From IMG/VR virus record IMGVR_UViG_3300030060_005071, positions 332 to 26,059 of that record: a stretch of 25,728 bases of DNA. The stretch is one strand, 5' to 3'. This DNA is from a virus. The notes below the pieces were generated by a model, which searched no databases, had not been told where the DNA came from, and saw only the letters and a list, made by a program, of their open reading frames with translations. Both the position numbers and the translations under genes were made by a program. Below, piece by piece: positions 535 through 20,979 of this stretch (position 1 is the stretch's first letter; the number at the start of each line of letters is the position of its first letter).

Positions 535-542
535 TTACACAA
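535..542 (-). promoter_or_regulatory. TTGTGTAA element upstream of the lipoprotein gene
   Basis: On the minus strand this reads TTGTGTAA after a T-rich stretch and ends 8 nt before the ATG at 526. It is the same 8-mer seen on the plus strand before phoH, the portal gene and the membrane-protein gene. It is a candidate phage promoter element; the spacing implies a very short leader. Confidence 0.5.
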
Positions 543-554
543 AAACAAAAGGAA

Positions 555-562
555 TTGTGTAA
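555..562 (+). promoter_or_regulatory. TTGTGTAA element upstream of phoH
   Basis: TTGTGTAA lies 14 nt before the phoH ATG and only 12 nt from the oppositely oriented copy at 535-542, making a compact divergent control region. The leader after it ends in AATAAGCCT directly before ATG, nearly matching the leader of the gene at 14032. I see no good Shine-Dalgarno sequence there. Confidence 0.5.
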
Positions 563-576
563 TTCTCAATAAGCCT

Positions 577-1368
577 ATGAAAAACAAAGATGGCTCTCAC
601 AAGCCTATCAAAATCCGAGGCGGCAAGGAACTAGCGACTGAAGTTAGAAAAGACAACTGTGACGAAACACGCTTTATTGCCGAAAACCCAATTAAAAGAC
701 AAATCAGAGTAAACCAATTTCCTTGGACTGAAAAACAGAAAGACTTTTTTAGAGTAGCTTTACATCCACACACAAGAATAATCTTTGTAAGCGGGCCAGC
801 GGGCACATCTAAAACTTTGCTGGCAACCTACTGCGCTCTTCAGTTACTCAACCTTAAGTCTATTGAAGAGATTATGTATCTACGGTCTGCCGTAGAATCA
901 TCAGACAAAAGCCTTGGTTATTTGCCGGGCAACGCTGATGAAAAGTTAAAGTTTTTTAATTTGCCATTTTTAGACAAACTCACAGAGCTTTTGACAGGAA
1001 AGCAAGCCGAAAAGCTAGAGCAAGAAAATAGAATCTCTATGTTCCCTGTAAACTTTGCGCGGGGTATGAACTGGCAAGCTAAGTGCGTTATCCTTGATGA
1101 AGCGCAAAACTCAACAGAAAAAGAAATAATGACTGTTCTCACCCGTTTGGGTGAAGGTAGTCGCGCTTTTATTCTAGCTGACCCAATGCAAACAGACCTC
1201 AAAGGGTATGACAAAACAGGCGGCTACCAAAACCTAGCGCAAATCTATTCTGACGAAGACTCTCTGCAACATGGTATTTATCACTTCACTTTTGATGAAG
1301 ATGACATCATGCGTTCTGAGCTTGTTAAGTTCTTAATCAAGAAGCTAAATCAATCAAAAAGCAAGTAA
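577..1368 (+). CDS. phoH: PhoH-like P-loop ATPase
   Basis: The 263-residue protein is a PhoH-family ATPase. Walker A is GPAGTSKT (residues 73-80), the Walker B strand is VILDEAQN (171-178), and the family segments RGMNW (162-166) and ADPMQTDL (201-208, usually GDPxQxDL) are present in the right order. PhoH domains are related to the ATPase part of superfamily 1 helicases. Some have RNA helicase or RNase-linked activity, and they are very common in marine phages, where their role is unsettled. Here the ATPase stands alone with a roughly 50-residue N-terminal extension and no PIN or KH domain. The start is the first ATG after the TTGTGTAA element. The gene appears to be its own transcription unit: a small hairpin terminator follows directly and the next gene is convergent. 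Confidence 0.92.
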   Translation: MKNKDGSHKPIKIRGGKELATEVRKDNCDETRFIAENPIKRQIRVNQFPWTEKQKDFFRVALHPHTRIIFVSGPAGTSKTLLATYCALQLLNLKSIEEIMYLRSAVESSDKSLGYLPGNADEKLKFFNLPFLDKLTELLTGKQAEKLEQENRISMFPVNFARGMNWQAKCVILDEAQNSTEKEIMTVLTRLGEGSRAFILADPMQTDLKGYDKTGGYQNLAQIYSDEDSLQHGIYHFTFDEDDIMRSELVKFLIKKLNQSKSK

Positions 1369-1371
1369 ACG

Positions 1372-1389
1372 AAACCCTGTGGTTTTTTT
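1372..1389 (+). terminator. Small intrinsic terminator after phoH
   Basis: AAACC, loop CTGT, GGTTT, then the run of seven T at 1383-1389. The 5-bp stem starts 3 nt after the phoH stop. The stem is short, so efficiency is uncertain, but the place and T-run fit. Confidence 0.45.
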
Positions 1390-1424
1390 AATTACTTTTA
1401 AATATTTTTAATTATAACAAGTAA

Positions 1425-1441
1425 CACGAACATTGTTCGTG
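1425..1441. repeat. 17-bp perfect inverted repeat in the convergent gap
   Basis: CACGAACATTGTTCGTG is an 8-bp perfect inverted repeat around one central base. It lies in the AT-rich gap between the convergent ends of phoH and the metallopeptidase gene. It has no strong T-run on either strand, so it is not a classical intrinsic terminator. It could be a protein-binding site or an mRNA 3' end-protecting hairpin. Confidence 0.6.
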
Positions 1442-1453
1442 GGTATGTTTAAC

Positions 1454-1768
1454 CTATTTACCTTTACTCTTCTTGGGGTCTTTTTTGGCTTTACGCCACC
1501 CCTGAGAATATAGGAATCGAGTAACAGTGTTACCAAACTTAGTTACGTTTTCTTCTGATGCATCCCAAAAAAATGCGTGAGCAAACTCGTGAATCATTGT
1601 GTTCATAAGCTGTCTCTCCGTTTGGTTCGGATTAACTATGATTTTCGGGTCATCTTCTGATGGGTCAAAGCAGAGCCCCACAGCGTTGTAGGCTTTAGGT
1701 GGTTTCTTCAAAATCACCTCGTATCTTACTTTTCCATCACAAGTTCTGAATACAAAAGGCTTTTTCAT
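1454..1768 (-). CDS. Small HExxH zinc metallopeptidase-like protein
   Basis: The 104-residue protein has the zinc-peptidase motif HEFAH at residues 60-64 inside the helix MNTMIHEFAHAFFWD. This is followed by an acidic stretch (Asp69, Glu72, Glu73) that could give the third zinc ligand. The preceding strand PKIIVNPNQTERQ fits the edge strand and lead-in to the active-site helix of minimal SprT-like and related phage metallopeptidases. The C-terminus is Lys-rich. There is no signal peptide, so it is probably cytoplasmic. It is the only complete minus-strand gene in the window and sits between phoH and the sigma-terminase block. Its upstream region lacks a clear TGTGTAA element, although a weaker AATGTAAT lies about 12 nt before the start. 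Substrate and role are unknown; processing of a host or phage protein is an inference. It could alternatively be an inactive zinc-binding fold. Confidence 0.75.
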   Translation of the reverse strand: MKKPFVFRTCDGKVRYEVILKKPPKAYNAVGLCFDPSEDDPKIIVNPNQTERQLMNTMIHEFAHAFFWDASEENVTKFGNTVTRFLYSQGWRKAKKDPKKSKGK

Positions 1769-1826
1769 GGTGTATACCTAATTACATTAAAAATAGAAAA
1801 AAAACCTTTAAAAATTATAATTTATT

Positions 1827-2225
1827 ATGAACATTTATTGCAAGTCTTGTGGGGGTCCAACCGCTTACGGCTCAAAAAAGCCCAAATTTTGCAGTCATTG
1901 TGGTCAACCGTTTAATTCTATGGCAAAAGCCAGCACGCCAACTAAACGTCCTGCTCCACAGAAAAAACAGGTTATTGCTCAAGAATTTCACGAAGATGAG
2001 GCTATGGCTGATGATTCTCCTCGGATACCTAATATATCTAGACTTGACGCTGATATAGAAGTAGGCAGAGCAAGAGGGGTAAAGCTTGGGGAAATAGCTG
2101 GCACGGCTAACGAAAATGACGAAGCGTTTATAAGACCCTCGGATGGTACAGAAATAAGCTCAGAACAAGCCCTGAAGCAATTACAGAAAGAAGCTGGATC
2201 AATAAGGCAAAAGGGAAGCTCTTAA
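1827..2225 (+). CDS. Zinc-ribbon protein upstream of sigma factor
   Basis: The 132-residue protein starts with a four-cysteine zinc ribbon: Cys5-x2-Cys8 and Cys22-x2-Cys25, with knuckles YCKSCGG and FCSHCGQ. A Pro/Lys/Gln-rich linker follows (about residues 30-50), then an acidic middle, and an end rich in Gln, Lys and Ser that looks partly disordered. No enzyme motif is visible. Ribbons of this type often bind nucleic acid or RNA polymerase. Its stop overlaps the sigma-factor ATG by one base (TAATG), so the two are probably translated together. A role as a transcription cofactor for that sigma factor is attractive but is inference from position and fold only. The leader is very AT-rich with no clear Shine-Dalgarno sequence. 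Confidence 0.72.
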   Translation: MNIYCKSCGGPTAYGSKKPKFCSHCGQPFNSMAKASTPTKRPAPQKKQVIAQEFHEDEAMADDSPRIPNISRLDADIEVGRARGVKLGEIAGTANENDEAFIRPSDGTEISSEQALKQLQKEAGSIRQKGSS

Positions 2226-2914
2226 TGCCCAAAAAGCCCAAAAGGCCAAAATTCGAAGAAAACATTGACGTAATCGACCAAGAGATAAGGAAGCGTAGGA
2301 ACAAATGGAATCTTACCGCTTTAGCTTGGATGGATTTTGATGATGTATCTCAGATTTTAAGGTTTCACATATTTAAGAAGTGGGATATGTATGACCCATC
2401 TCAACCCTTGACTCCTTGGGTTAATAGGATCATTTCGAATCAAATAAAAAACCTAATCAGAAATAACTATGGTAATTTCACAAGACCCTGTTTAAAATGC
2501 GCTGCCGCTGAAGGGTTTGGGGGCTGCAATATTTATGGAGACCAAGACAGCAAATGTCCTTTATTTGCTAAATGGGAAAAAACCAAGAAAAGAGCTCATG
2601 ACGCAAAATTACCTTTGGCTTTAGAAAACCACACTAAAGAGGTATCTTCTATGGGTGGAGACTTTTTTGATGTTGAGCTTGCGGCTAAAAAACTTCATAA
2701 AAAAATGAAAACGATCCTTAAAGCTAATGAGCTACAGGTCTACGAGTTGCTATACATAGAAAACCTAGAAGAAGAAGATGTAGCTAAAAAGATGGGGTAC
2801 AAAACCACAGAGAAAAATCGACAGCCGGGCTACAAACAAATCAAGAACATTAAAAAATCTATTTTGATAAAAGTTAAAAAAGAGATAGAAAAAAACGGCG
2901 CAGATATATTTTAA
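2225..2914 (+). CDS. Phage RNA polymerase sigma factor with Cys-rich insertion
   Basis: The 229-residue protein resembles sigma-70-type factors. Residues about 37-86 (FDDVSQILRFHIFKKWDMYD, then PWVNRIISNQIKNLIRN) match region 2, the part that binds core polymerase and melts the -10 region. Residues about 166-220 (ANELQVYELLYIENLEEEDV, then a Lys-rich helix) resemble the region 4 helix-turn-helix. Between them is an insertion with four cysteines, Cys89-x2-Cys92-x8-Cys101-x9-Cys111, which could bind zinc. The expected job is to direct host RNA polymerase to phage late promoters, as T4 gp55 does. It is coupled to the zinc-ribbon gene upstream by a 1-nt overlap, and the next gene starts one base after its stop. 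The likely target is the TGTGTAA element found before most transcription units here. The family call is fairly firm; the target is a hypothesis. Confidence 0.8.
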   Translation: MPKKPKRPKFEENIDVIDQEIRKRRNKWNLTALAWMDFDDVSQILRFHIFKKWDMYDPSQPLTPWVNRIISNQIKNLIRNNYGNFTRPCLKCAAAEGFGGCNIYGDQDSKCPLFAKWEKTKKRAHDAKLPLALENHTKEVSSMGGDFFDVELAAKKLHKKMKTILKANELQVYELLYIENLEEEDVAKKMGYKTTEKNRQPGYKQIKNIKKSILIKVKKEIEKNGADIF

Positions 2915-2915
2915 C

Positions 2916-4013
2916 ATGTCCGACATGACAAAAGAACAAAGGCATCAGGCTGCTGTCGATCTTTGGAGAGAAAGAGAAGCGGCTAACGAAACACCTCCAT
3001 CCTTACAAGAGGTAATGGCGGTTTCTTACCCAGACAAACCCGACCTAGACGGCAGAAGCAAAGAGGCGAGAGAGCTTAAATCGTTTTTAGCGGAACTAGA
3101 AATAGAGCCTGACGGAGCTCATGTTTACCACCCGAAAGAAATAGAGCCTTTAACTGACGAGCATAAAGAATTTATCATAAATAATGCAAAGGTGATGGGG
3201 GGTACGCACTTAACTCGCACTGTATACAATGACCCAACGATAACCCCACTTGATGGCAGAGTGAGACTTGTGAATGAGTTTTTAAAAACTTTGCCTGAAG
3301 ATATAGTCACGCAAGACACTCAAGACATCCCAGACCCAGCATATACCCCGCCTAAAACATTTGATAAAACCTTGTTGTTGGTCAACAAATATATCCACGA
3401 AAAAATAGAAAAGAAAAAAATTAATGGCCGACAAAAGAAAGAAATTAACGCCCTTATGGGTTATATAAACACCGTAAGATTTATTCACCAAGTCAGCACC
3501 TTTGACAATAACATGGATAGAGAATTGTTTCAATCCAGTTTTGTTCGTTATACGCATGACAAGCCAGACCTTACTCAAGAAGAAGTTGACCAATATATTG
3601 TGCTTTCTACGGAGGTTGTAATCGGCTCTAGTATTCAAGCTCGCTCTGAACGCTTACAGCAACTACTTGACAACGCAGCAGAAGACAGTGAAGGTAGGCG
3701 GCTGGCTATGGGGTTAGTGCAAGCCATCAGTGCGGCACAAACAGAATATAACCAATGCGTCGGAAGACAGCATAAGTTATTGGGTGATTTAAAAGAAAAG
3801 AGAAGTGACAAGCTTAAGAGTCAGATAAAAGAGAGTGCAAGCGTTGTTCATCTTGTGCAAATGTGGAAAGAGGAAGAGTCCAGAAAAAAACTTATTGCTT
3901 TAGCTGAACTCAGGAAAAAGGGAGTAAAAAAAGAAATCAAAAAACTGTCTTCAATGGACGAAGTAAAAGCCCGAATCATGGGCATAAGCGAGGACGAGGT
4001 ATTAAATGGTTAG
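2916..4013 (+). CDS. Unrecognised helical protein, possible DNA-binding packaging partner
   Basis: A 365-residue soluble protein that I do not recognise. The N-terminal half is mostly helical and has stretches that could be helix-turn-helix units, for example SLQEVMAVSYPDKPDLDGRS and KEFIINNAKVMGGTHLTRTV. The C-terminal third is strongly charged and probably coiled-coil (about residues 280-350, rich in Lys, Glu and Arg). It begins one base after the sigma factor and its last 8 nt overlap the nuclease gene, so it belongs to the same translationally coupled block that ends in terminase. No small terminase is otherwise visible, and a DNA-binding helical protein two genes upstream of the large subunit is a reasonable candidate for it. 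That is position-based inference only. No membrane segment or signal peptide is seen. Confidence 0.6.
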   Translation: MSDMTKEQRHQAAVDLWREREAANETPPSLQEVMAVSYPDKPDLDGRSKEARELKSFLAELEIEPDGAHVYHPKEIEPLTDEHKEFIINNAKVMGGTHLTRTVYNDPTITPLDGRVRLVNEFLKTLPEDIVTQDTQDIPDPAYTPPKTFDKTLLLVNKYIHEKIEKKKINGRQKKEINALMGYINTVRFIHQVSTFDNNMDRELFQSSFVRYTHDKPDLTQEEVDQYIVLSTEVVIGSSIQARSERLQQLLDNAAEDSEGRRLAMGLVQAISAAQTEYNQCVGRQHKLLGDLKEKRSDKLKSQIKESASVVHLVQMWKEEESRKKLIALAELRKKGVKKEIKKLSSMDEVKARIMGISEDEVLNG

Positions 4014-4941
4014 TTGTAAGATTTGCGGAAAAGAGTTTGATTCGGATAGACAATTACACGCGCATCTAAAAGCTCACAAGATGCGGGTAATTGAGTATTA
4101 TCAATCTCAATACCCTAGATACGACAAATTCGATAACACCATTATTAAGTTTAAAAGCAAAGACCAATATTTCGCCAGCGATTTCAATACTAGAACCAAT
4201 CTTAAAAAATGGATTAAATCTGCACCCAAAGACGAAGTTAAAGAATACTGCGAGAACCTTCTTATAGACAGAAAAAAGAAAAAGAATCTAGAATATGCGC
4301 CGACTCAGGTTGAGCTTAGAACCCTGCTTATACCACCTATTCAATGTTACAATGAGTTGTTTGGTGACTACTATGAGCTATGCAGGAAGCTGGGTTTTAA
4401 AACAGATTACTTTAATTACGATAAAATTATTACTGGCTCAGAAATCAATAACTCTAAAAAGATTTACATAGACACTAGAGAGAAAAAGCCTTTAAATTTC
4501 AAAAATGTGGAAACCGAGGTTAGAACCTTGAAGTTTGGCGACTACGCTTTTAGTGACGAAGAGGCTTCTTGTAAGTGTTATATAGAAAGAAAATCGACTA
4601 GCGATTTCATAGGAACCCTAAGCGGGGGTTACGATAGATTCTGTAGAGAGATAGAAAGAGCGCAACAAGCTAATGCTGGTTTTGTAATATTGGTAGAAGA
4701 AACCCTTAGTAATTGTTTAGGTTTTAATTACTTACCTCACGTTTATAAAAAAGGAACCAAAGTAACTCCAGAGTATTTATTTCATAACGTAAGAAAACTT
4801 GGGCAAACCTACCCCTTCATTCAGTTCTTATTTGTAAAAGGAAGAGTTAGAGCAGCAGAAACTGTGCAAAAAATATTCACGTCTGGGTGCGCTTTTAAAA
4901 GTGTTGACTTGCAGCTAGCCTATGATACTAAAAAATTGTAA
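4006..4941 (+). CDS. C2H2 zinc finger - ERCC4-type nuclease
   Basis: The 311-residue protein has two recognisable parts. Residues 4-24 form a classical C2H2 finger (Cys4, Cys7, His20, His24; CKICGKEFDSDRQLHAHLKA). From about residue 152 there is an ERCC4/XPF-type nuclease core: IDTREKKPL (Asp156, Arg158, Glu159), KFGDYAF (Gly178, Asp179) and YIERKSTSDF (Glu194, Arg195, Lys196, Asp200). These match the GD, ERK and DxRE elements that bind metal. A helical middle section links them. The family cuts branched or flap DNA structures. The gene overlaps the upstream one by 8 nt and the terminase start by one base, so it is probably co-translated with terminase. A role in resolving recombination intermediates before packaging, like T4 gp49, is inferred from position. 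The C2H2 finger, mainly eukaryotic in distribution, probably aids DNA binding. Confidence 0.85.
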   Translation: MVSCKICGKEFDSDRQLHAHLKAHKMRVIEYYQSQYPRYDKFDNTIIKFKSKDQYFASDFNTRTNLKKWIKSAPKDEVKEYCENLLIDRKKKKNLEYAPTQVELRTLLIPPIQCYNELFGDYYELCRKLGFKTDYFNYDKIITGSEINNSKKIYIDTREKKPLNFKNVETEVRTLKFGDYAFSDEEASCKCYIERKSTSDFIGTLSGGYDRFCREIERAQQANAGFVILVEETLSNCLGFNYLPHVYKKGTKVTPEYLFHNVRKLGQTYPFIQFLFVKGRVRAAETVQKIFTSGCAFKSVDLQLAYDTKKL

Positions 4942-6764
4942 TGTGGTACTCTCCTGAAAAATATGATAAGGAATTCGAAAACCTTAACGATCAATTCTTA
5001 GCTCTAAAAGGTGAGCTTGAAGATAAGGAGGCTAAGATATCTTTGGCCAAGTTCTTGAGGGCTAATTTAGGGTTTACTACCGAATTGATTTCTGGTATCA
5101 AGCTAGCAGCTTACCAAGAAGCCACGCTAAAGGGAATGATGAACCGCAACTTTTCTATGTGTGTCTGGGGCCGTGGTTGTGGTAAGACTTTTATTGCTTC
5201 TGTGTTTTGTTTTCTTCAATGCATATTTGAACCTGGCACTAAAATACTTATTGCTGGCCCGACGTTTCGTACTGCGAGGTTTATTTTCAATAACCTAGAG
5301 AAACTAGTGGAGTCGAAAGGAGCAGAGCTTCTGTCGCAATGTTTCGGCGCTAAGTCTAAACGCAACGATCAGTTTGAGTGGAGCATCAATGGTGGGACAA
5401 TTACGGCGATCCCACTTAACGGTGAAAAGATTCGTGGTTTCCGCGCCAACGTGCTGGTGCTTGATGAGTACCTTCTTTTGCCTGAAGATATTATCAAAAC
5501 TGTGTTGATGCCATTTTTGGTCGCGCCTCAAAACATGAAAGAGCGTTTAGAGATCAGAGAAATGGAGAATAGACTTATAGAGCAAGGGGCAATGAAAGAG
5601 GAAGATCGAATGGTGTTCGAAAATAATTCAAAGATGATTGCCTTGTCTTCTGCATCTTATACGTTTGAAAATCTATTTAAGACCTACAAGGAATGGATGG
5701 AGAAGATACAAAATAAAGACCACCATGACGCAAAATACTTTATATCACAAATGAGCTACGAAGCTCTACCAGAAGAAATGGTAGACCCGACTATTATTGA
5801 GGAGGCCCAAACTGGTGGTGTTTCAAACTCGTCTTTTCAACGCGAGTATTGTGCTCAATTCACTGACGGTAGTGACAGCTATTTCAGCGCCAAGAAGATG
5901 CACGAATGCACTGTCCCAGATGGGGAAGAGCCAACGTTAAGGCTGTCTACTCAAGACGGTTCAAAATACATAATTGCAATTGACCCCTCGTTCTCTAACA
6001 GTCCTAGCTCTGACTACTTTGCTATGACTATAATGGAATTAAATGAGGAGAACAAAACTTCTACAGTTGTTCATAGTTATGCGGTGGCTGGAGGCAATCT
6101 TAAAGACCATATAGCTTACATGCATTATTTAACTGACAGCTTTAATGTGGTTATGGTTATTATTGATAACGCAGGGTATCAGTTCTTGGATAGCTGTAAT
6201 GAAAATGATAAATTTAAAAACAAGAAACTCAAGTTTATAGATTTTAACAGTGACGCTGAAGGGGTAGATTACGAAAAAATGCTTCGTAACGCTAAAAGAC
6301 AATACAATAAAGAATTAGGCCATATGTGCTTTAAACAAGTGTTTACCACTAATTTTATTAGAAACGCTAACGAATATTTACAAGCTTGCATTGACCACAA
6401 GAAAGTCTGGTTTGGTTCCAGAATTGCCCCAAACCCAGACGCTTTTATGAGAGAGTCAAATAAGAGACTTCCGTTAGTCTACCCACAAGGCGAGGGTATC
6501 TTAGATTTGATTGAAAACCAAGATAATCTAATATATCAGACAAAAAAGCAATGCGCCCTTTTAGAAGTCAATTCGACAGCCAGAGGAACTCAATCTTTTG
6601 ATTTGCCCCAGCATTTAAAACGAAATACCTCTGCCAATAGAGCCAGAAAAGATAATTATACTACCTTAATGCTTGGCAACTGGGCGGTTAAATGTTATTT
6701 TGATATGATGGACTTGGGAGAAATCAATGTAAATTCGACTTTTAGCCCATTAATGATACAATAA
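4941..6764 (+). CDS. terL: Terminase large subunit
   Basis: The 607-residue protein is the ATP-driven DNA packaging motor and headful or cos nuclease. The ATPase half has Walker A GRGCGKT (77-83) and the Walker B strand VLVLDE (Asp175, Glu176), with an upstream IAGPTFRTARF segment. The RNase H-like nuclease half has IIAIDPSFS (Asp348), VMVIIDN (Asp409) and RKDNYTTLMLGN (Asp571), the usual three metal-binding acids. Length is normal for the family. The start ATG overlaps the nuclease stop by one base. It ends the early coupled block; the portal gene follows after 20 nt carrying its own TTGTGTAA element. The protein docks on the portal vertex of the prohead. Confidence 0.95.
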   Translation: MWYSPEKYDKEFENLNDQFLALKGELEDKEAKISLAKFLRANLGFTTELISGIKLAAYQEATLKGMMNRNFSMCVWGRGCGKTFIASVFCFLQCIFEPGTKILIAGPTFRTARFIFNNLEKLVESKGAELLSQCFGAKSKRNDQFEWSINGGTITAIPLNGEKIRGFRANVLVLDEYLLLPEDIIKTVLMPFLVAPQNMKERLEIREMENRLIEQGAMKEEDRMVFENNSKMIALSSASYTFENLFKTYKEWMEKIQNKDHHDAKYFISQMSYEALPEEMVDPTIIEEAQTGGVSNSSFQREYCAQFTDGSDSYFSAKKMHECTVPDGEEPTLRLSTQDGSKYIIAIDPSFSNSPSSDYFAMTIMELNEENKTSTVVHSYAVAGGNLKDHIAYMHYLTDSFNVVMVIIDNAGYQFLDSCNENDKFKNKKLKFIDFNSDAEGVDYEKMLRNAKRQYNKELGHMCFKQVFTTNFIRNANEYLQACIDHKKVWFGSRIAPNPDAFMRESNKRLPLVYPQGEGILDLIENQDNLIYQTKKQCALLEVNSTARGTQSFDLPQHLKRNTSANRARKDNYTTLMLGNWAVKCYFDMMDLGEINVNSTFSPLMIQ

Positions 6765-6772
6765 TTGTGTAA
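6765..6772 (+). promoter_or_regulatory. TTGTGTAA element before the portal gene
   Basis: The 8-mer begins at the base directly after the terminase stop and ends 12 nt before the portal ATG. It fills most of the 20-nt gap, so it is a candidate promoter for the portal-tail-fibre unit. Confidence 0.5.
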
Positions 6773-6784
6773 CTCAAAACAGCA

Positions 6785-8695
6785 ATGACAGGCAAAAGGA
6801 AAACAGCTAGGAAGGCAAAGGTGGAAGAGGAAGTTAAGCCGTTAATGGTTTCGGAAGCTTCTGAGTCTTTAGCGTCTTCAAGTACCACAACTACCACACC
6901 CACTCGTAGAAACGCATCTGGCACTATCACAAGGACTGATAGATACAAGAATATCTCTGATGGCCTTATTCCTTACAAATTTACTCCAGGCACGGGCTCC
7001 AGTAATCGCTCAAATATTGACGTAAGAGATTCCGTAATTCTTTGCCAGAAAGCTTACTACAACTTTGCCGCTTTTAGAAATGTCATTGATTTAATGACCG
7101 AATTTTCAATCAGTGACGTTTACTTCAAAGGCGGAACCAAGAAGTCTAGGGATTTCTTTTCAGCTTTTTTCAGGAAGTTAAATATACTAGGATTTCAAGA
7201 TAGATTCTTTAGAGAGTATTTTAGGTCTGGTAATGTTTTTATTTATCGTTTCGATGGCAAAGTGCAGCCTGAAGACATGAGTAAAATTACTCAGATGTAC
7301 GGTGCTAGTTTTGCCGCTGAAGAAAAGCTTCCCGCCCGTTATATGATTTTAAACCCAGCAGACATTCAACTAACTGGTTCTGCTGCGTTCTGGAACGGTA
7401 ATTACTATAAGGTATTTTCAGATTACGAGTTATCTAGACTTCAGAACCCACAGACTGACGAGGACAGAGAAATTTTAGATTCTCTCGATCCAGACTCAAG
7501 GAAAATGCTTCAAACCAACAAGCGGTCTAAGATTGTGTTGATGAAGCTCGACCCAAAAAAGGTTCGCCCTGTTTTCTACAAGAAGCAAGACTACGAGCCA
7601 TTCGCTGTGCCTTTGGGTTTCCCAGTTTTAGAGGATATTAATTACAAAGCCGAACTAAAGAAAATGGATATGGCTATTGCTCGCACTATGCAGCAAGCGA
7701 TCCTATTGGTCACGATGGGTACTGACCCAGAGAAAGGCGGCGTAAACCAAAAGAATTTAGAAGCGATGCAGACGCTGTTCCAGAATCAATCTGTGGGTCG
7801 TGTTCTTATTGCTGATTATACCACAAAGGCTGAATTTGTAATTCCAAATATTGGTTCTTTATTGGACGGTAAAAAATATGAGGTTGTGGATAGAGACATT
7901 CAACTTGGTCTCAATAATATACTTGTAGGTGAAAGCACTTTTGCAAATCAAAACGCAAAAATTGATTTATTCATCGCTAGGCTTGAGCAAGCCAGAAGAA
8001 CCCTAATGGAAGACTTCTTAATCCCAGAGATTAAAAGGATTTCAAAAGCTATGGGTTTCAAAAGCTACCCCACCCCTTACTTTGACAGGATTACTCTTAA
8101 AGATGATACAAACATGCTGCGTATCTACAATAGGCTTATTGAGCTAGGTATCCTAACCGCTGAAGAAGGATTAGAGGCTATTGACACTGGTAGATTACCA
8201 GACAAAGAAATGTCATTAAAGTCTCAAGAAGAATTTAAAGAGTTAAGAGAGCAGGGTCTTTATGAGCCTTTAATCGGCGGCAAGAATCAAGCCGAAATTA
8301 AAAAAGACGCTGGGAGACCAGAAGGAGGGCCAGCACCTACCCCAGAACAAAATCCTGCTGGACAAGGAGAACAGTCAAATGCTGTTAACTACAGCTTGAC
8401 TAAGGTAACAGATAATTTAACAAAAGCTTCAAAGCTATTTAAAACGGTGGAGGCTAGTCTAAGGAAGAAGCACAAAATTAAAAGACTAAACAAAGAACAA
8501 AAGCAAGTCGCAGAAGATATCGCTTGTATTATCATTGCGAATGAGAGCCCAGAAAGCTGGGATAAAAAAGTCTCTCAGTATGTGCGGAAGCCTATCGACA
8601 CCAACCACGACAGAATAGCCGAAGTTAGAGAAGTCGCTTTTGAGCATCAGGTAGATGATTACCTAGCAAGCATTCTTCTCGCTAGTAAGGCGTAA
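6785..8695 (+). CDS. Portal protein
   Basis: The 636-residue protein fits a portal. It follows terminase and has portal-like segments: YYNFAAFRNVIDLMTEF near residue 80, FFREYFRSGNVFIYRFDGK near 140, then YMILNPADIQLTG. A long helical core follows (AELKKMDMAIARTMQQAILL), then IGSLLDGKKYEVVDRDIQLGL and NILVGESTFANQNAKIDLF, typical of portal wing and stem helices. The N-terminal 40 residues are Ser/Thr-rich and probably disordered. The C-terminus has a Pro/Gln-rich linker followed by a Lys-rich helical tail (about residues 515-636). Portals form the dodecameric ring through which DNA enters the head and to which the tail attaches. The next gene starts 11 nt later. I assign portal from overall pattern and position, not from a single diagnostic motif. 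Confidence 0.85.
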   Translation: MTGKRKTARKAKVEEEVKPLMVSEASESLASSSTTTTTPTRRNASGTITRTDRYKNISDGLIPYKFTPGTGSSNRSNIDVRDSVILCQKAYYNFAAFRNVIDLMTEFSISDVYFKGGTKKSRDFFSAFFRKLNILGFQDRFFREYFRSGNVFIYRFDGKVQPEDMSKITQMYGASFAAEEKLPARYMILNPADIQLTGSAAFWNGNYYKVFSDYELSRLQNPQTDEDREILDSLDPDSRKMLQTNKRSKIVLMKLDPKKVRPVFYKKQDYEPFAVPLGFPVLEDINYKAELKKMDMAIARTMQQAILLVTMGTDPEKGGVNQKNLEAMQTLFQNQSVGRVLIADYTTKAEFVIPNIGSLLDGKKYEVVDRDIQLGLNNILVGESTFANQNAKIDLFIARLEQARRTLMEDFLIPEIKRISKAMGFKSYPTPYFDRITLKDDTNMLRIYNRLIELGILTAEEGLEAIDTGRLPDKEMSLKSQEEFKELREQGLYEPLIGGKNQAEIKKDAGRPEGGPAPTPEQNPAGQGEQSNAVNYSLTKVTDNLTKASKLFKTVEASLRKKHKIKRLNKEQKQVAEDIACIIIANESPESWDKKVSQYVRKPIDTNHDRIAEVREVAFEHQVDDYLASILLASKA

Positions 8696-8706
8696 GGTCG
8701 TGGTAA

Positions 8707-13349: not shown

Positions 13350-13388
13350 TTGGACATATTTTCAAAAAAAAGTTATATTAGTTTACTT

Positions 13389-13568
13389 ATGAGTGAAGAA
13401 CAACAAGAACAACAAGAGCAACAGCAAGTACCGAAAGAGTTAGACCTCCAACAATCTTTCAATCTGTTAGTCAATTTAGCAAGACAAAGTAAGCTCACAT
13501 ACGAAGAGCACGCTTTAGTCGATAGGTCAGTGCAAAAAATAGCGGAAAAACTAGAAGTCAATAATTAG
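13389..13568 (+). CDS. Small Gln-rich protein
   Basis: A 59-residue protein whose N-terminus is a Gln/Glu run (MSEEQQEQQEQQQVPKEL) followed by a short helical segment LDLQQSFNLLVNLARQSKLT and a charged end. I prefer the ATG at 13389. A longer reading from a TTG at 13350 would add 13 residues but starts right after the fibre stop with no ribosome-binding site. The DNA of the Gln run is a tandem caacaagaa-type repeat. It is the last gene before a strong terminator, so it probably belongs to the portal-fibre unit. Function is unknown; a chaperone or assembly factor for the fibre would fit its position but nothing shows it. Confidence 0.65.
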   Translation: MSEEQQEQQEQQQVPKELDLQQSFNLLVNLARQSKLTYEEHALVDRSVQKIAEKLEVNN

Positions 13569-13589
13569 TCATAAATACTCATAATTAAG

Positions 13590-13617
13590 AAAGGGCGCTT
13601 TTTGGCGCTCTTTTTTT
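13590..13617 (+). terminator. Intrinsic terminator after the tail-fibre unit
   Basis: Stem AAAGGGCGC / GCGCTCTTT (9 bp, one G-T wobble) with loop TTTTTG, ending in a run of seven T at 13611-13617. It lies 21 nt after the stop of the small Gln-rich gene. The next TTGTGTAA element begins inside the T-run. Confidence 0.85.
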
Positions 13618-13623
13618 GTGTAA
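13616..13623 (+). promoter_or_regulatory. TTGTGTAA element after the terminator
   Basis: The 8-mer overlaps the end of the terminator T-run and ends 8 nt before the ATG at 13632. A terminator followed at once by this element argues that it restarts transcription. Confidence 0.55.
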
Positions 13624-13631
13624 CAATATAT

Positions 13632-13964
13632 ATGAAAAACCTAATTTCATGGGCCAAACAAAACGCCTTATCTCTAGCTCAAACCATAATGTTGTTCTTC
13701 ACTGCCATTATTCTCGCTGTGCTTCTGAATAATCAAATCAAAACGTCTGAAGTGCATCAACTAAACGAAGAGCTAACTCAAGAGGTTAGAACTCTCGACA
13801 GAGACACCAATGACATCATGATTAAAATGATTGAGCAACGTGGTCAGATTATGCAAATGGGCGCGACTATTGAAGAGGCCAATGAAATTATTCAAAGTTT
13901 AGTCGGCAGATTGCAGCAAATGCAGGAAGAACTCAACAAGGCCAAAGGTCGGAGTGAATCATAA
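13632..13964 (+). CDS. N-terminally membrane-anchored coiled-coil protein (spanin-like)
   Basis: A 110-residue protein with an N-terminal membrane segment at about residues 13-33 (LSLAQTIMLFFTAIILAVLL). The rest is a charged helix with heptad-like spacing (VHQLNEELTQEVRTLDRD, then IEEANEIIQSLVGRLQQMQE), strongly coiled-coil in character. I chose the ATG at 13632. A TTG-initiated longer reading from 13602 begins inside the terminator hairpin and would be translated from a terminated transcript. This single-membrane-helix plus periplasmic coiled-coil plan matches inner-membrane spanins (Rz type), which disrupt the outer membrane at lysis. No overlapping outer-membrane spanin gene is visible. 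It could instead be a membrane-tethered assembly factor. It starts the capsid transcription unit. Confidence 0.7.
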   Translation: MKNLISWAKQNALSLAQTIMLFFTAIILAVLLNNQIKTSEVHQLNEELTQEVRTLDRDTNDIMIKMIEQRGQIMQMGATIEEANEIIQSLVGRLQQMQEELNKAKGRSES

Positions 13965-14031
13965 AAATGCATAATTATTTATATTTTTTTAGTAAAATGT
14001 CCATATAGCGTGTAGTTTATTAATAAGCCTT

Positions 14032-14538: not shown

Positions 14539-14542
14539 TTTT

Positions 14543-14550
14543 CTGTGTAA
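14543..14550 (+). promoter_or_regulatory. CTGTGTAA element and strong RBS before the small beta-rich gene
   Basis: CTGTGTAA starts 5 nt after the stop of the previous gene and ends 21 nt before the ATG at 14572. The sequence AAGGGAG, a good Shine-Dalgarno, lies between them at 14555-14561. This spacing is fully compatible with a -10-like element followed by a normal leader. Confidence 0.5.
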
Positions 14551-14571
14551 ATCCAAGGGAGTTTTCAGCCT

Positions 14572-14835
14572 ATGAATAATGATCATTTAAATGTAAATAA
14601 TATCGCTTGTGGAGCGACAGCAAAAGTTTCCGCTGATAGTGGCAACTTTTTTCGTGTTACCGCCATACATAACGGTCACACTTCCGCTTCTACAGTAACT
14701 TTTGCCGATGATTCGGCCTTAAACGCAATCACCGTGGGAGCGGGCGCTAGTGTAGATTTAGGCGTTGCGCCAATCGTATGCCAAAGCTTTACCCCAGGCC
14801 ACGCTGCAATTTCAGTTTTTTATCATAAAGGTTAA
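14572..14835 (+). CDS. Small beta-rich protein, possible head or tail decoration
   Basis: An 87-residue protein of predicted beta structure with Gly, Ala, Ser and Thr throughout (KVSADSGNFFRVTAIHNG, STVTFADDSALNAITVGA, SVDLGVAPIVCQSF). It has no charged helices, signal peptide or membrane segment. It has a clear Shine-Dalgarno (AAGGGAG) and a CTGTGTAA element upstream, and only 2 nt separate it from the protease-scaffold gene. Size, beta character, apparent high expression and place beside the capsid genes suggest a small virion surface or stabilisation protein. I do not recognise a named family. Confidence 0.7.
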   Translation: MNNDHLNVNNIACGATAKVSADSGNFFRVTAIHNGHTSASTVTFADDSALNAITVGAGASVDLGVAPIVCQSFTPGHAAISVFYHKG

Positions 14836-14837
14836 AC

Positions 14838-16343: not shown

Positions 16344-16360
16344 TATAGGATTATAATACT

Positions 16361-16951
16361 ATGGCAACTAAGTTACATCCATTCAGACAATATAACGAGA
16401 ACGACGTTATCAATTTGTTTACCTATGATGGTACTTCTGTTGATGCTGGTAGACTTTTGAAGCTCGATTCGAGCAATCAATGGTCTGGGCTAGGGAGCGA
16501 CGATTACGTCGATCTCGGCTCCGATACTGGCAACAGCTACTCTAATGTCGTTTCTACTCAATACTCACTGAAAGGCAAGCTAGATTTAGCTGGCCTTGCA
16601 GATCGTCCACTCGGCGTAAATGTTATGGCGATGGCTAACACTGATGAAAACGGTGAAAAGCTTCTCTACAACCCGCGTAAAGCCGCTGAGATGGGAGTCG
16701 TAATTCCAGGTCAAGCAATCCCTGTTGCAACACGAGGCGTATTTATTTACAACTCTGATGAAACAGCTTGGACAGGATCAACTGTAAACGCAGGAACCGT
16801 TCTTTACGGTGCAGCCAACGGAATTCTTTCTGATTCCACTGGTAGTAATGCTGTGGCTGTTGGTGTGGCACTCGGTGGTAAAGCCGCTGTGACCAAGCCT
16901 TCTACTAGCTACAACGCTGCTCTTGTTAAAATCGACTGCTTACACAGCTAA
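16361..16951 (+). CDS. Probable head decoration/stabilisation protein
   Basis: A 196-residue beta-rich protein between the protease-scaffold gene and the capsid gene, where decoration proteins (lambda gpD position) are usual. Visible traits are an N-terminal MATKLHPFRQYNENDVINLF, turns rich in Gly, Ser and Asp, and a Gly/Ala-rich end (GVALGGKAAVTKPSTSYN). No membrane segment or catalytic motif is seen. Codon use is shifted toward C- and G-ending codons, like the capsid gene, which suggests strong expression and a high copy number in the virion. Its stop is 17 nt before the capsid start. No exact family is recognised, so decoration is a positional and compositional inference. Confidence 0.68.
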   Translation: MATKLHPFRQYNENDVINLFTYDGTSVDAGRLLKLDSSNQWSGLGSDDYVDLGSDTGNSYSNVVSTQYSLKGKLDLAGLADRPLGVNVMAMANTDENGEKLLYNPRKAAEMGVVIPGQAIPVATRGVFIYNSDETAWTGSTVNAGTVLYGAANGILSDSTGSNAVAVGVALGGKAAVTKPSTSYNAALVKIDCLHS

Positions 16952-16968
16952 AACGGAGACTTAATATT

Positions 16969-18075
16969 ATGAAATTAAAGCTTAAAAATACTCCAGAACA
17001 AGTAGAGCTCATTAAAGCAATGGGCTCCAGAGACATGGCTGTGGCTAATGAGGCTTCTCAAGCATTCGCAGCTTTCGTTGGTCCCGTCGTTCGTGAAGTT
17101 CTAATGCAGGCTGGTTCTTCTTCTCTTATCTATTCCGATATGGAATTTGATGAGGATGATAGCCCTAGCTTACCATTGGACCTCTACTACGATGAGGAAC
17201 AAAATCACATCACTGTTTGGTCTCAGGCCGTTGCAGGTGGTCTTCCCACCTCAGAGGTCTCTGGCATGAACGAGTTGAAAATCACCACTTACCGCTTGGA
17301 CAGCGCTATTAGCTATCTTAAAAGATATGCCCGTAGAGGCCGTTTGGACGTGGTAAGCAAAGGTCTTGAGAGAATGTCTAATGAGGTTCTCATCAAGCAA
17401 GAGCGTAATGCTTGGGCGGTGATTCTCAAAGCACTCGCAGAGGCTAGCACAAACAGCTTGAGTCACGTTGTTGGTGGATCGACTGAGAGCGTTCTCGTTC
17501 CTCACGACATCAACAGATTGATGACTCGCATCAAGAGAATCAATACCTCTTATGCTGACGGTACTCCCGCCAACATGAGCGCTAAAGGTATTACCGACAT
17601 GTTCGTTTCTCCTGAGATCATGCAGCAAATCAGAGCATTTGCGTACAACCCAGTTAACAGCACTGGCACTAACACTGATATCCCGTTGACCCCGAACGTC
17701 AGAGACCAAATTTGGAACTCTGGTGGCATGGGCGAAATCTACGGTATCACCTTGCACGAATTGTTGGAGCTTGGTTCTTCCAAGAAGTACAACACCTTGT
17801 TTAAGGCTCTCATCGATTCCGCTGGAAGCACCATCATTGGTGGTGGAGACACTGGAACCTTCGCTGACGCCGCAGACGAGATTCTCGTGGGTGTTGACTT
17901 GACCAGAGACGCCTTCGTGCGTCCTGTGGCCCGTCAAGCTGAGAGCGGTGGCACATTCACTGTGCTTCCTGACGATCAGTTCGTGGCACGTCAAGAGAAG
18001 CAAGGCTTCTATGGCTTCCTAGAGGAAGGCAGAGTCTGCGTTGACGCCAGAGCAGTTGTTGGCTTGGCTATCTAA
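16969..18075 (+). CDS. Major capsid protein (HK97-type)
   Basis: The 368-residue protein has the length and make-up of an HK97-fold major capsid protein. It has an N-terminal helical segment (NTPEQVELIKAMGSRDMAVA), a charged DEDD stretch before a beta strand (SPSLPLDLYYDEEQN), the long spine-helix region (LERMSNEVLIKQERNAWAVI), a P-domain-like SAKGITDMFVSPEIMQQIRA, then GEIYGITLHELLELG and the C-terminal domain DLTRDAFVRPVARQ to FYGFLEEGRVCVDARAV. The order after protease, scaffold and decoration genes supports the call. CGGAGA lies 11 nt before the ATG (16953-16958), a ribosome-binding site. Codon use is biased to C/G-ending codons, as expected for the most abundant virion protein. A strong terminator follows. 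The fused scaffold and protease would assemble and mature this protein. Confidence 0.88.
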   Translation: MKLKLKNTPEQVELIKAMGSRDMAVANEASQAFAAFVGPVVREVLMQAGSSSLIYSDMEFDEDDSPSLPLDLYYDEEQNHITVWSQAVAGGLPTSEVSGMNELKITTYRLDSAISYLKRYARRGRLDVVSKGLERMSNEVLIKQERNAWAVILKALAEASTNSLSHVVGGSTESVLVPHDINRLMTRIKRINTSYADGTPANMSAKGITDMFVSPEIMQQIRAFAYNPVNSTGTNTDIPLTPNVRDQIWNSGGMGEIYGITLHELLELGSSKKYNTLFKALIDSAGSTIIGGGDTGTFADAADEILVGVDLTRDAFVRPVARQAESGGTFTVLPDDQFVARQEKQGFYGFLEEGRVCVDARAVVGLAI

Positions 18076-18092
18076 GTTGACAGCACAAAATT

Positions 18093-18124
18093 TCCCTCAC
18101 CCGAAAGGGTGGGGGATTTTTTTT
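18093..18124 (+). terminator. Strong intrinsic terminator after the major capsid gene
   Basis: TCCCTCACCC, GAAA tetraloop, GGGTGGGGGA: a 10-bp GC-rich stem with one T-G wobble, followed by eight T at 18117-18124. It starts 17 nt after the capsid stop and ends the capsid transcription unit. Confidence 0.93.
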
Positions 18125-18130
18125 ATATTT

Positions 18131-18138
18131 CTGTGTAA
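18131..18138 (+). promoter_or_regulatory. CTGTGTAA element after the capsid terminator
   Basis: The element lies 6 nt past the terminator T-run and 35 nt before the YHYH gene start, with AAAAGG acting as a ribosome-binding site at 18160-18165. This terminator-element-gene order repeats the arrangement at 13590-13632. Confidence 0.55.
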
Positions 18139-18173
18139 TAAAACTTGGTAATACTAGGTAAAAGGCTTCAAAA

Positions 18174-20438
18174 ATGGGAATAAAACGTAATCCATATTTA
18201 CGACATATAGATAGCTATAAAGACGACTCTAAGGCTTTTTACAGCCTCACCAGAACCATTGGTCTAAGAGCGGATCAAGTTGACCCAATTTATCTCACGA
18301 CTGATGGCAAAATTGTAGCCAATGGATTTGTAGACAAAAACGATAATATTGAATTTTACTTAGACAAAAATTCTAAGCTTTCCTATAAGCGGCAATTAGA
18401 TTCGAATACTAGCGCAAAACACTCTTTTGATCCTAAAGAAACTTTCACAAAGACAGGTATTGCTTTCGAAATATTAGAGGGAGATTTTAATTATTACGAA
18501 AATGCTACCGAATATTACGACAAAAAAGACTCCCTTAAATTCAACTACCTAAATAAGACCACTAAAAAGCTAGTAGAAAACAACAGCAGTGGTCCTTTTG
18601 TCTTTCATTTTACTCATGAAAATGGCAACAAATATCCCTTACCCCATATAAAAGGGAGTTGGTTTCCAGCTTTTAATTACGACATTCATATCTCTCCTAC
18701 TAATTACCTCACAAACACTAATGATATTATTGTTATAAAATCTGGAGAATACAAAACTCAATCTGACGGACCAGCGACATCTTTGATTGACGTTCTGTTT
18801 TACTCAAGCGGCACAACTGGAAATATATACATTGATACCTTATCAATCCCAAATCACTCGGCCTCATCTTATGCAGAGCTAGATGATTCTGTTAAAAATG
18901 TAAAAATTCCAAGAACAGGAAATTCAAATTATGGAGTAGGGGCTACAAAAACTGACACACCTTCAGGCCCAGTGGGTGTTTTCAAAAATGGTGTTTTAGC
19001 TTTTAGCTATAAGAGCTCAAACGCTTGGACAGGCGCGGGTACTTATACAGAAAACTCTTACATAGCGAACAGATTTGACAAAGACAGTTGCGAAGGTTTT
19101 ACAGCTTTAGGTCCAGATTTGGAAGGGGTTGTTACCCCTATTAACACATACCATTATAAAAGTGCTCCTAAATGTATTTACGATACTGATTCTACAGCAC
19201 ACTCACCGTTATTGGGTTACGCATTTGATGGTAATCCTATTTACGGGCCATACGGATACACAACAGCTTTAGATTCAGGCAGCGCACCAAAACTTATGAC
19301 CCCAAGCTGGAGGCTTAAGGGGTTATCAAATAGAACTAACGGTCCAGATTTTGACAGTTACTTTTATCCTTCGGGATACTTTCAGGAAGATTACGAATAC
19401 GTTAGTGGTTTAGGAGACCTAGATAGGTATAATGGTAGAACTTGTATAACGCCAGAATACCCAGGCGGGGTTTACGCTTATTTCACTACAGTGGATAGCT
19501 CTCATGAACCAGTGTTTCCATATATTATAGGAGATAAATTTTATGGAAAAGTCGAGCAACAAAACTACAGCGGCGTAACTGTAACTGAACCTGTTAATTT
19601 GATTACTGGTTTAGATGAGCTAAGTCAAGCTGACTTTGATGTTTCTCTATTTGAAGATAGTATCTACGGCCTTAAATTTACTAAATCTTTTGGGTTAAAC
19701 AAGGAAACTATTATCTGGGTTTCACCTCATGAACTAAAATCTTACACTGGGGTTTGTTTAACAACTGGAACTTACCAATACATTGGCGCAACTGGCCAAA
19801 GCGCTTCGTTTAGCGGCAATTTGTTTACTGCGTCAGGCAATTCAACTTATGCTTCGTCTAGTTTAAACAATAAATACATTGCAGAATCCAGAGCTTTAAG
19901 TTATCCAAGTTCAGTAGATTATGCGTTTGCTGGAAAAACTCCTTTCTCTGGGGGAGTTGCGTATGTTAGAACTGACCCAGATACTGTCACGCAGCAAATT
20001 GTAAATGGCTATACTGATCTTGGAGCAACAAATTTTTACACTATATACAGCGGCTACAAAAACGGAATAGAAAGCGTAAAATCTGGAGCTAAAAATCCAA
20101 ATTTTGAAACAGGAGTATGGAATGGAGTTATCCCTTCTGGTGTTCCATTTAAAATTGAAGTGTGGTCTTTTAATGGTGGTTTATGTGGCTTTGAAGATAG
20201 AATTTCTATACATCCAGTAGAAGATCATCCAGCAGTATCAAACAAGCAAATAGCCATGAACGGCATATTTACAGGCGTTGGCGATTCACCACAACAGGCA
20301 CACACAGATATGATTGACAAAGCGGATAAATTTTTTAAGAGGCAAATAAGCTCATACCTAATGAGTAGTGGCGTTATTGACTATAATTCTAAAACAAAAA
20401 AATTCGGTAGATTACTGAAGAAAGGGGTTGTATCGTGA
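18174..20438 (+). CDS. YHYH-domain virion protein
   Basis: The 754-residue protein carries a YHYH domain in its middle: TYHYKSAPKCIYDTDSTAHS (Tyr326, His327, Tyr328) followed by PLLGYAFDGNPIYGPYGY. The fourth residue of the name-giving motif is Lys329 rather than His. YHYH proteins are known in marine phages, often in tail or fibre proteins, and in some bacteria and algae; their biochemical role is unclear. Flanking parts are beta-rich with many Ser, Thr, Asn and Tyr, and the C-terminus has a helix (QAHTDMIDKADKFFKRQISS). No signal peptide is seen. It begins its own transcription unit after the capsid terminator, and its stop overlaps the next gene's GTG start (GTGA). A tail or baseplate-appendage role is inferred. 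Confidence 0.8.
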   Translation: MGIKRNPYLRHIDSYKDDSKAFYSLTRTIGLRADQVDPIYLTTDGKIVANGFVDKNDNIEFYLDKNSKLSYKRQLDSNTSAKHSFDPKETFTKTGIAFEILEGDFNYYENATEYYDKKDSLKFNYLNKTTKKLVENNSSGPFVFHFTHENGNKYPLPHIKGSWFPAFNYDIHISPTNYLTNTNDIIVIKSGEYKTQSDGPATSLIDVLFYSSGTTGNIYIDTLSIPNHSASSYAELDDSVKNVKIPRTGNSNYGVGATKTDTPSGPVGVFKNGVLAFSYKSSNAWTGAGTYTENSYIANRFDKDSCEGFTALGPDLEGVVTPINTYHYKSAPKCIYDTDSTAHSPLLGYAFDGNPIYGPYGYTTALDSGSAPKLMTPSWRLKGLSNRTNGPDFDSYFYPSGYFQEDYEYVSGLGDLDRYNGRTCITPEYPGGVYAYFTTVDSSHEPVFPYIIGDKFYGKVEQQNYSGVTVTEPVNLITGLDELSQADFDVSLFEDSIYGLKFTKSFGLNKETIIWVSPHELKSYTGVCLTTGTYQYIGATGQSASFSGNLFTASGNSTYASSSLNNKYIAESRALSYPSSVDYAFAGKTPFSGGVAYVRTDPDTVTQQIVNGYTDLGATNFYTIYSGYKNGIESVKSGAKNPNFETGVWNGVIPSGVPFKIEVWSFNGGLCGFEDRISIHPVEDHPAVSNKQIAMNGIFTGVGDSPQQAHTDMIDKADKFFKRQISSYLMSSGVIDYNSKTKKFGRLLKKGVVS

Positions 20439-20974
20439 TAGCTTATAAAAAAATAAGATTTTCTAAGCTTTTTGTTTTTGAGGCGGATTTGATTTACATA
20501 CCTAAATCTCTAAACAGAAAAGGTATTGACCCACTACCGAAATATCATTTAAGGCCAACTAAGCTGTTGGAGTATCAAGATTTTTCGTACAATCCTTCTT
20601 CAGTTAACAATGGCTATGTAAAGAGTAAGAATTCAAATTTATATGTTAAGAACATAGATTTTGTTGACGTTGATTTTGTGTCAGACCTTTTTAACTTTAT
20701 CAAGAAAAAACCACCTTATGGTTTTACTAGTGAAATAGATTATGAAGAATTTGTGGAAACTACTTTCGACTTTAGCTACTCCAACACATTGGGGGCAAGA
20801 TATAACGCTAAATCAAACCAAGCGGTTTTTGTAAAAGAAAATATAGACCCACTAATTACCGTAGAACATCTTTATGTAAAAACAGAAGCAAGTAAGATAC
20901 AGTCTTTTTATAACACTGATTTTGTAAAAGTCGGAAAACATTCAAGCGTAAACGTATTCAACTCTAACGTTTAG
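20435..20974 (+). CDS. Hypothetical protein coupled to the YHYH gene
   Basis: A 179-residue protein that I do not recognise. It starts with GTG inside the YHYH stop (GTGA overlap). AAAGGGG at 20421-20427 is a good Shine-Dalgarno 7 nt upstream, which supports this non-ATG start. The sequence is rich in Phe, Tyr, Lys and Asn and looks mostly beta (FSKLFVFEADLIYIPKS, NLYVKNIDFVDVDFVSDLFN, DPLITVEHLYVKTEA). It has no membrane segment. Its tight coupling to the YHYH gene and to the giant gene 14 nt later suggests a tail or adaptor protein that works with them. Confidence 0.78.
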   Translation: MIAYKKIRFSKLFVFEADLIYIPKSLNRKGIDPLPKYHLRPTKLLEYQDFSYNPSSVNNGYVKSKNSNLYVKNIDFVDVDFVSDLFNFIKKKPPYGFTSEIDYEEFVETTFDFSYSNTLGARYNAKSNQAVFVKENIDPLITVEHLYVKTEASKIQSFYNTDFVKVGKHSSVNVFNSNV

Positions 20975-20979
20975 TGTAA
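20973..20979 (+). promoter_or_regulatory. AGTGTAA variant before the giant gene
   Basis: AGTGTAA overlaps the stop codon of the upstream gene and ends 9 nt before the ATG at 20989. It differs from the consensus TGTGTAA at the first base. No Shine-Dalgarno is obvious. Confidence 0.3.

Follow-up and report, generated by a model that had tools for sequence, protein, structure and literature searches.

A GTGTAA box as a candidate single-element late promoter, often with predicted leaderless starts, in a lineage of uncultured phages

Introduction

Late promoters that consist of a single element and are read by a phage sigma factor are already known. In phage T4, the late promoter is one box spanning -13 to -6, with an A/T-rich segment that is melted and no -35 element, and it is read by gp55 (PMC2988020). 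The middle and late promoters of phiEco32, a Kuravirus podophage, possess a single tAATGTAtA box that is read by gp36 and directs starts 6-8 bp downstream, and the late promoters of phage 7-11 are bipartite (GTAAtg-16-aCTA) and are read by gp47 (PMC8948821). Among host genes, a -10 box adjoining the start codon, giving rise to a leaderless mRNA, is established for Deinococcus-Thermus (PMC12340547), and -10-adjacent leaderless genes have been inferred for Actinobacteria (PMC3160421). The present analysis concerns a GTGTAA box found in 25,728 nucleotides of viral DNA (positions 332 to 26,059 of IMG/VR record IMGVR_UViG_3300030060_005071, nearly the whole of a 26,059-base contig; hereafter the window, whose own coordinates are used below) and in the relatives of this virus. 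The sequence evidence makes it very probable that the box serves as the -10 element of a late promoter that is phage-specific, consists of this one element, often gives leaderless starts and is read by a phage sigma factor. What appears to be new is the combination of this box with frequent leaderless starts in a phage lineage; in the literature, which was covered incompletely, no report was found of a phage lineage with this leaderless, -10-adjacent build.

The candidate promoter resembles that of T4 in its single box one helical turn upstream of the predicted start, its A/T-rich downstream sequence, its lack of a -35 element, its association with structural genes, and a phage sigma factor as candidate reader. 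In the predicted register, T(-13) G(-12) T(-11) A(-10) A(-9) W W (-13 to -7; W is A or T), it would correspond to the T4 box with A-12 changed to G and preceded by G-14. Unlike T4, the box here is GTGTAAW rather than TATAAATA, and the candidate sigma factor, termed sigma A, possesses a region-4-like domain and a four-cysteine (Cys4) insert, whereas gp55 is sigma-like only in domain 2; the leaderless geometry predicted here is not described in the T4 text (PMC2988020). With the gp36 promoters of phiEco32 the box shares a single element with a TGTA core, a candidate phage sigma factor, a predicted start shortly downstream and the lack of a -35 element, but gp36 is without region 4. The T4 and phiEco32 boxes were both tried as candidates and are not enriched upstream of genes in this lineage (TATAAATA, 1.5-fold, with 12 forward and 16 reverse copies; AATGTATA, 0.7-fold), and no homology between sigma A and gp36 is detectable (hhalign probability 0.1, E 0.44). 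The gp55 and gp36 systems are functional parallels. In phage 7-11, a phage sigma factor that does possess region 4 reads late promoters before structural genes, much as is proposed here, but those promoters are bipartite and no second element was found in the present case. Finally, the leaderless genes of Deinococcus-Thermus and Actinobacteria likewise have their -10 box within a few bp of the start codon and are missing a Shine-Dalgarno (SD) motif; those are host genes with a TANNNT box and the housekeeping sigma factor, whereas here a phage appears to use both host-type and phage-specific boxes.

A conserved box upstream of structural genes

The original prediction, made from the window, had proposed that the heptamer TGTGTAA marks a phage-specific late promoter. 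Nine exact copies occur on the two strands of the window where 4.4 are expected, a count that is only mildly high, as many being found in 2 of 100 shuffles. Six of the nine lie within the 576 non-coding bases (of 51,456 strand positions; p = 1.6e-10), and all six face a gene start. Placement, not number, carries the signal in the window, and TGTGTAA is also the top 7-mer of its upstream regions. The earlier estimate of about 575 intergenic bases with six copies is thus reproduced, whereas that of two exact copies inside genes falls one short: three are present, at 16940-16946 (minus strand), 23564-23570 (plus) and 25095-25101 (minus), of which the second lies within a giant gene with no gene start near and is presumably a chance copy.

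The relatives carry the argument much further. In the upstream non-coding segments of 36 dereplicated, independent relatives, with the window excluded, GTGTAA is the top hexamer (63-fold, with 119 forward versus 4 reverse copies) and GTGTAAT the top heptamer (109-fold). Across 18 long contigs and the window, some 1.7 Mb in all, 210 upstream copies of GTGTAA were counted, compared with an average of 22.7 for 89 permutations of its letters, the highest of which, AGTGTA, overlaps the motif. The base before the hexamer may be T, A, C or G, and TGTGTAA is therefore one flavour of a broader W5-GTGTA(A/T)(A/T). A logo of 161 sites depicts a single box with A/T-rich flanks, in which G is nearly absent from the six positions after the box, and the consensus reads W5-GTGTA(A/T)(A/T)-W6. 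No -35 partner was found, either as a strongly conserved base from -45 to -6 relative to the box in the same logo or as a shared k-mer within single genomes in a per-genome search. Related boxes are weakly enriched (GTGTAT, 3.4-fold; ATGTAAT, 2.5-fold; GTGTAG, 2.2-fold), and the ATGTAAT variant, followed by an SD motif, stands before a tail-type family (paralogues of the 8707 family) in G003, G007, G014, G017, G022 and G025.

The genes served by the box are largely of a structural type. Among orthologues defined as reciprocal-best orthogroups, the box precedes the tape measure gene in 10 of 11 genomes, phoH in 11 of 15, and the portal gene in 11 of 17 by an automatic count, with diverged flanks; a family of 115 residues has it in 10 of 15 genomes. 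In the 18 long contigs and the window the box was never found upstream of rIIA, rIIB or the clamp loader, genes that are annotated there and do have gaps before them. GTGTAA and sigma70-like sites occupy mostly different regions of the large contigs, with some overlap. The term late is an inference from gene class. In addition, the late box is carried, in all 4 of 4 genomes, by the gene of a protein (L158:18435-19247, from G016) whose C-terminal part matches phrog_858, a starvation-inducible transcriptional regulator.

Distance to the start codon and predicted leaderless messages

The distance from the hexamer to the start codon has a wall at 8 nt: only 4 sites lie closer, 38 lie at 8 nt and 26 at 9 nt, and a tail extends beyond 60 nt. 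Such a wall is expected of a promoter whose +1 is nine bases past the hexamer, because start codons cannot precede +1. A wall at 8 nt is also present around relatives of sigma A down to about 41% identity. At positions 13 and 14 of the box frame there is an initiator-like signature, T or C followed by A or G. At the 8-nt sites these positions are the base before the ATG and the A of the ATG itself; at leadered sites (17-70 nt), whose start codons lie further downstream, position 13 is nonetheless T in 62% and position 14 is A or G in 82%. SD motifs follow the same ruler, being found at 0 of 38 sites at 8 nt, 1 of 55 at 9-11 nt and 4 of 39 at 12-15 nt, and then at 14 of 21 sites at 20-24 nt and 25 of 38 at 25-35 nt (39 of 59 together). 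This is the pattern that a promoter with +1 at nine bases predicts, since an SD motif is feasible only where the leader is long enough.

A comparable geometry is seen at the sigma70-like sites of the same phages. Upstream matches to TTGAC-N15..19-TAnnnT number 101 in 18 contigs, compared with 39 for a near-identical pattern on the reverse strand, and in 30 of the 101 exactly 6 nt separate the -10 box from the start codon, which is the peak; at 4-6 nt, 0 of 38 sites have an SD motif. In standard sigma70 geometry the -10 box ends at -7, and the ATG would therefore be +1 at the 6-nt sites, so that the early-type promoters of these phages are also predicted to make leaderless mRNAs. The late box appears to follow this sigma70-like leaderless plan with a spacing of its own. 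At both kinds of site the -10 box peaks about one turn before the start codon and the SD motif is missing, the two marks by which leaderless genes are recognized.

Motif, strand bias, distance wall, initiator, SD pattern and gene classes were all observed by computation, and they point to promoter action in vivo and to late timing. In the mechanism envisaged, host RNA polymerase carrying the phage sigma factor would melt the A/T-rich stretch after the box and start the RNA 9 nt past the hexamer, placing the hexamer at -14 to -9, T at -1, and A or G at +1. In about one third of units +1 would be the A of the ATG or lie 1-3 nt before it, and the late mRNA would be leaderless or nearly so; where the box is 20-35 nt upstream of the start codon, an SD site is usually present instead. 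The proposal of a phage-specific late promoter has thus gained support from a box that is conserved before structural genes over dozens of diverged contigs, is strand-specific and free of a -35 element, keeps a distance wall and an initiator, and is absent before early-type genes. Similarly, the almost leaderless mRNAs that the original prediction regarded as an odd point would, judging from the wall and the SD counts, be the rule.

Copies of the box in the window

All six gap copies of TGTGTAA named in the original prediction are present, as are its AGTGTAA copy and a weak variant, which proved to be CGTGTAG. The lipoprotein-like gene (2-526, minus strand) and phoH (577-1368) diverge from a 50-bp gap (526-577) that contains two opposed copies of the box. 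In the minus-strand copy, at 535-541, the hexamer ends 8 nt before the ATG, and the predicted start is the A of the ATG at 526, which would make the message leaderless; orthologues of this gene in G002, G003, G020, G022 and G037 have a box 8-11 nt before the ATG. The plus-strand copy, at 556-562, is 14 nt from the ATG of phoH, with a start predicted at about 571. The remaining copies are all on the plus strand. Before the portal gene (6785-8695), the predicted box at 6766-6772 leaves 12 nt to the ATG, with a start predicted at about 6781, and before a membrane/coiled-coil gene (ATG at 13632) the box at 13617-13623, directly after a terminator-like hairpin, leaves 8 nt and predicts a leaderless message. 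The weak CGTGTAG variant at 14009-14015 is 16 nt from the ATG of the 14032 gene; G002 has the same variant, and 11 of 14 orthologues of the 14032 family are preceded by canonical boxes. The predicted box of the 14572 gene, at 14544-14550, is 21 nt from the ATG, with a purine-rich, SD-like AAGGGAG between the two. That of the YHYH gene (18174-20438), at 18132-18138, is leadered, with 35 nt that include AGG..AAAAGG; it comes after an intrinsic terminator (18093-18116) that is itself 3' of the major capsid gene, an arrangement shared with G002 and G003. Finally, the predicted AGTGTAA box of the giant gene (20989 to the end), at 20973-20979, is 9 nt from the ATG and overlaps the TAG stop codon of the 20435 gene.

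The spacing of 8-14 nt first reported therefore holds for the lipoprotein, phoH, portal, 13632 and 20989 genes, with the 14572 and YHYH genes lying outside it. Two copies had also been placed after terminators, and both do follow terminator-like hairpins; in 19 contigs, such hairpins accompany 13 of 139 gaps with the motif versus 40 of 623 other gaps, and no clear rule emerges.

Sigma A, the candidate reader

Sigma A is encoded at 2225-2914 on the plus strand, in the same cluster as the late genes, and consists of sigma region 2, a zinc-finger-like Cys4 insert and a region-4-like domain. Of 37 relative records, 30 encode it, as do at least 551 IMG/VR stretches. Sigma70 region 2 (Pfam PF04542, Sigma70_r2) is detected in 26 of 28 relatives at E 0.01, the window protein itself scoring 24.6 bits against a cut-off of 24, and the insert has invariant cysteines at C89, C92, C101 and C111. 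An AlphaFold (AF2) model with a predicted local distance difference test (pLDDT) score of 76 has PDB matches; its residues 152-223 align with domain 4 of SigD (Z 9.0, root-mean-square deviation 1.9 A over 62 residues), and no Pfam region 4 hit was obtained. The C-terminus is a conserved short acidic-hydrophobic tail (..GEIDI/L/F, or ..EEDL in clade 2), seen in the window and in L207-L286 and L374-L453, which is reminiscent of the sliding-clamp-binding tail of T4 gp55.

The two-gene unit encoding sigma A is headed by a host sigma70-type -10 box, TATAAT at 1816-1821 (plus strand), 5 nt before the ATG at 1827. About 18 of 28 relatives have TATAAT 2-10 nt upstream of the first ATG of this unit, accompanied by TTGACA-16 in L209, L210 and G003, and in a minority of relatives the unit is headed by GTGTAA. 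The TATAAT box fits a cascade running from host sigma70 through sigma A to the late box. Its first step would be synthesis of the short sigma A unit from the sigma70-type promoter, itself at a leaderless distance; sigma A would then open the GTGTAA promoters of the portal, phoH, tape measure and other structural units.

Evidence against and alternative readings

A number of observations weigh against a late promoter read by sigma A. The major capsid gene, in those orthologues that were inspected, lacks a box to itself, lies in an operon with AGGAGA-type SD sites and must therefore be served by read-through; not every structural unit is boxed in every genome; and the gene starts in relatives, on which the distances depend, were called by script. 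Sigma A has its region-4-like domain despite there being no conserved -35 sequence, and a search for a T4-type (gp45) clamp, PF02916, gave no match, the control search being equally silent. Further observations concern a second phage sigma factor, sigma B, which has regions 2 and 4 and a motif ..QT.INLH.KG... It is encoded in all five distinct contigs of at least 125 kb (G011, G018, G008, G032 and G010; L289-L293), with further relatives in L294-L373, far from the late cluster, and it occurs in 131 IMG/VR stretches. The box with its 8-nt wall is also present around sigma B, where 28 sites lie at 8 nt.

These last findings raise the question of whether a promoter of the same type is read by sigma B, from its distant gene cluster, rather than by the sigma factor of the window, a possibility that is unlikely but deserves serious attention. 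One copy of sigma B, in G018, has an early TTGACA-type promoter. It is sigma A, not sigma B, however, that is embedded in the late cluster and is present in every terminase-bearing contig tested. Of 42 further sigma B contigs, four have sigma A, and the same four and no others have this terminase; those with sigma B only are probably other parts of the same genomes. Because contigs are genome fragments, co-occurrence fails to separate the two factors. That sigma A is the reader is inferred, and it is the probable assignment.

Reading by the host, whether of a variant -10 box by a housekeeping or alternative sigma factor or through an activator site that overlaps a host promoter, is improbable. 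The late box and the host -10 box are indeed alike in shape and in position relative to the start codon, but the late box favours structural-type units, and other genes of these phages have TTGAC/TAnnnT promoters of their own. Moreover, the same box occurs in phages of 35-50% guanine-plus-cytosine content from many habitats, which argues for a reader encoded by the phage.

Slightly less probable still is the suggestion that the box is no promoter at all, but acts within the mRNA at translation initiation, as a ribosome contact in place of the SD motif. This would account for the lack of SD motifs where the box is 8 nt from the ATG. A ribosome element should, however, have one best distance rather than an abrupt lower limit followed by sites as far out as 60 nt, and the leadered boxes coexist with SD motifs and retain the initiator signature 9 nt past the hexamer. 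In addition, 203 of 227 box-bearing genes have gaps of at least 20 nt, genes within operons, such as that of the major capsid protein (MCP), use an SD motif and no box, and in the lipoprotein/phoH gap no promoter candidate is clearer than the two opposed boxes. An RNA-processing site, at which a transcript started elsewhere is cut 9 nt after GUGUAA, would likewise yield a fixed 5' end and a distance wall, but it is a very remote prospect given how little space for another promoter is left by boxes directly after terminators or in the 50-bp divergent gap, the match to known phage late promoters in having A/T-rich, G-poor sequence downstream and no -35 element, and the same distance logic at sigma70-like sites of these phages.

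The late promoter read by a phage sigma factor also invites a more speculative extension, which is doubtful as a whole. In both its early programme, under host sigma70, and its late one, under phage sigma, the lineage may rely mainly on leaderless mRNAs. Its late sigma factor may join region 2, a zinc-finger-like insert, a region-4-like domain that does not read a -35 sequence, and a conserved acidic-hydrophobic tail in one compact fused protein. The tail may couple late transcription to the replication clamp, in which case the protein would be a natural counterpart of the fused gp55-gp33 that a review of T4 discussed as not existing in nature (PMC2988020).

Gene content, lineage and host

The window encodes phoH, the sigma factor, an ERCC4-type nuclease, terminase, portal, the YHYH protein and the giant gene. 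It probably also encodes a prohead protease/scaffold and the MCP, assigned through gene order with no family match. An Rfam search of the window gave no matches. Relatives of the capsid protein occur at 79 IMG/VR loci. Among 50,697 phage records, the MCP, sigma A, sigma B and the sigma A of L206 have no match and the portal has a weak match to phage G only; the terminase is at most about 30% identical to those of cultured phages, SPbeta-like and others. The lineage is large, widespread and uncultured, and is known from metagenomes only. Three of its contigs (L204, L205 and L206) are binned in metagenome-assembled genomes of Flavobacteriales, Halobacteriovorax and Flavobacteriaceae; as indications of the host, these bins contradict one another. 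The TTGAC/TAnnnT early promoters presumably argue against a Bacteroidota host.

Implications

For hundreds of contigs without a cultured relative, the box provides transcription units, late and early labels, and predicted starts at single-base resolution. With its two sigma factors it forms a small system that is suited to transcription in vitro. The finding points to a group of phages in which leaderless mRNA would be common rather than exceptional, and hints that their hosts translate leaderless messages well. Such phages would allow one to ask, in a natural setting, how leaderless initiation can sustain the massive protein synthesis of late infection.

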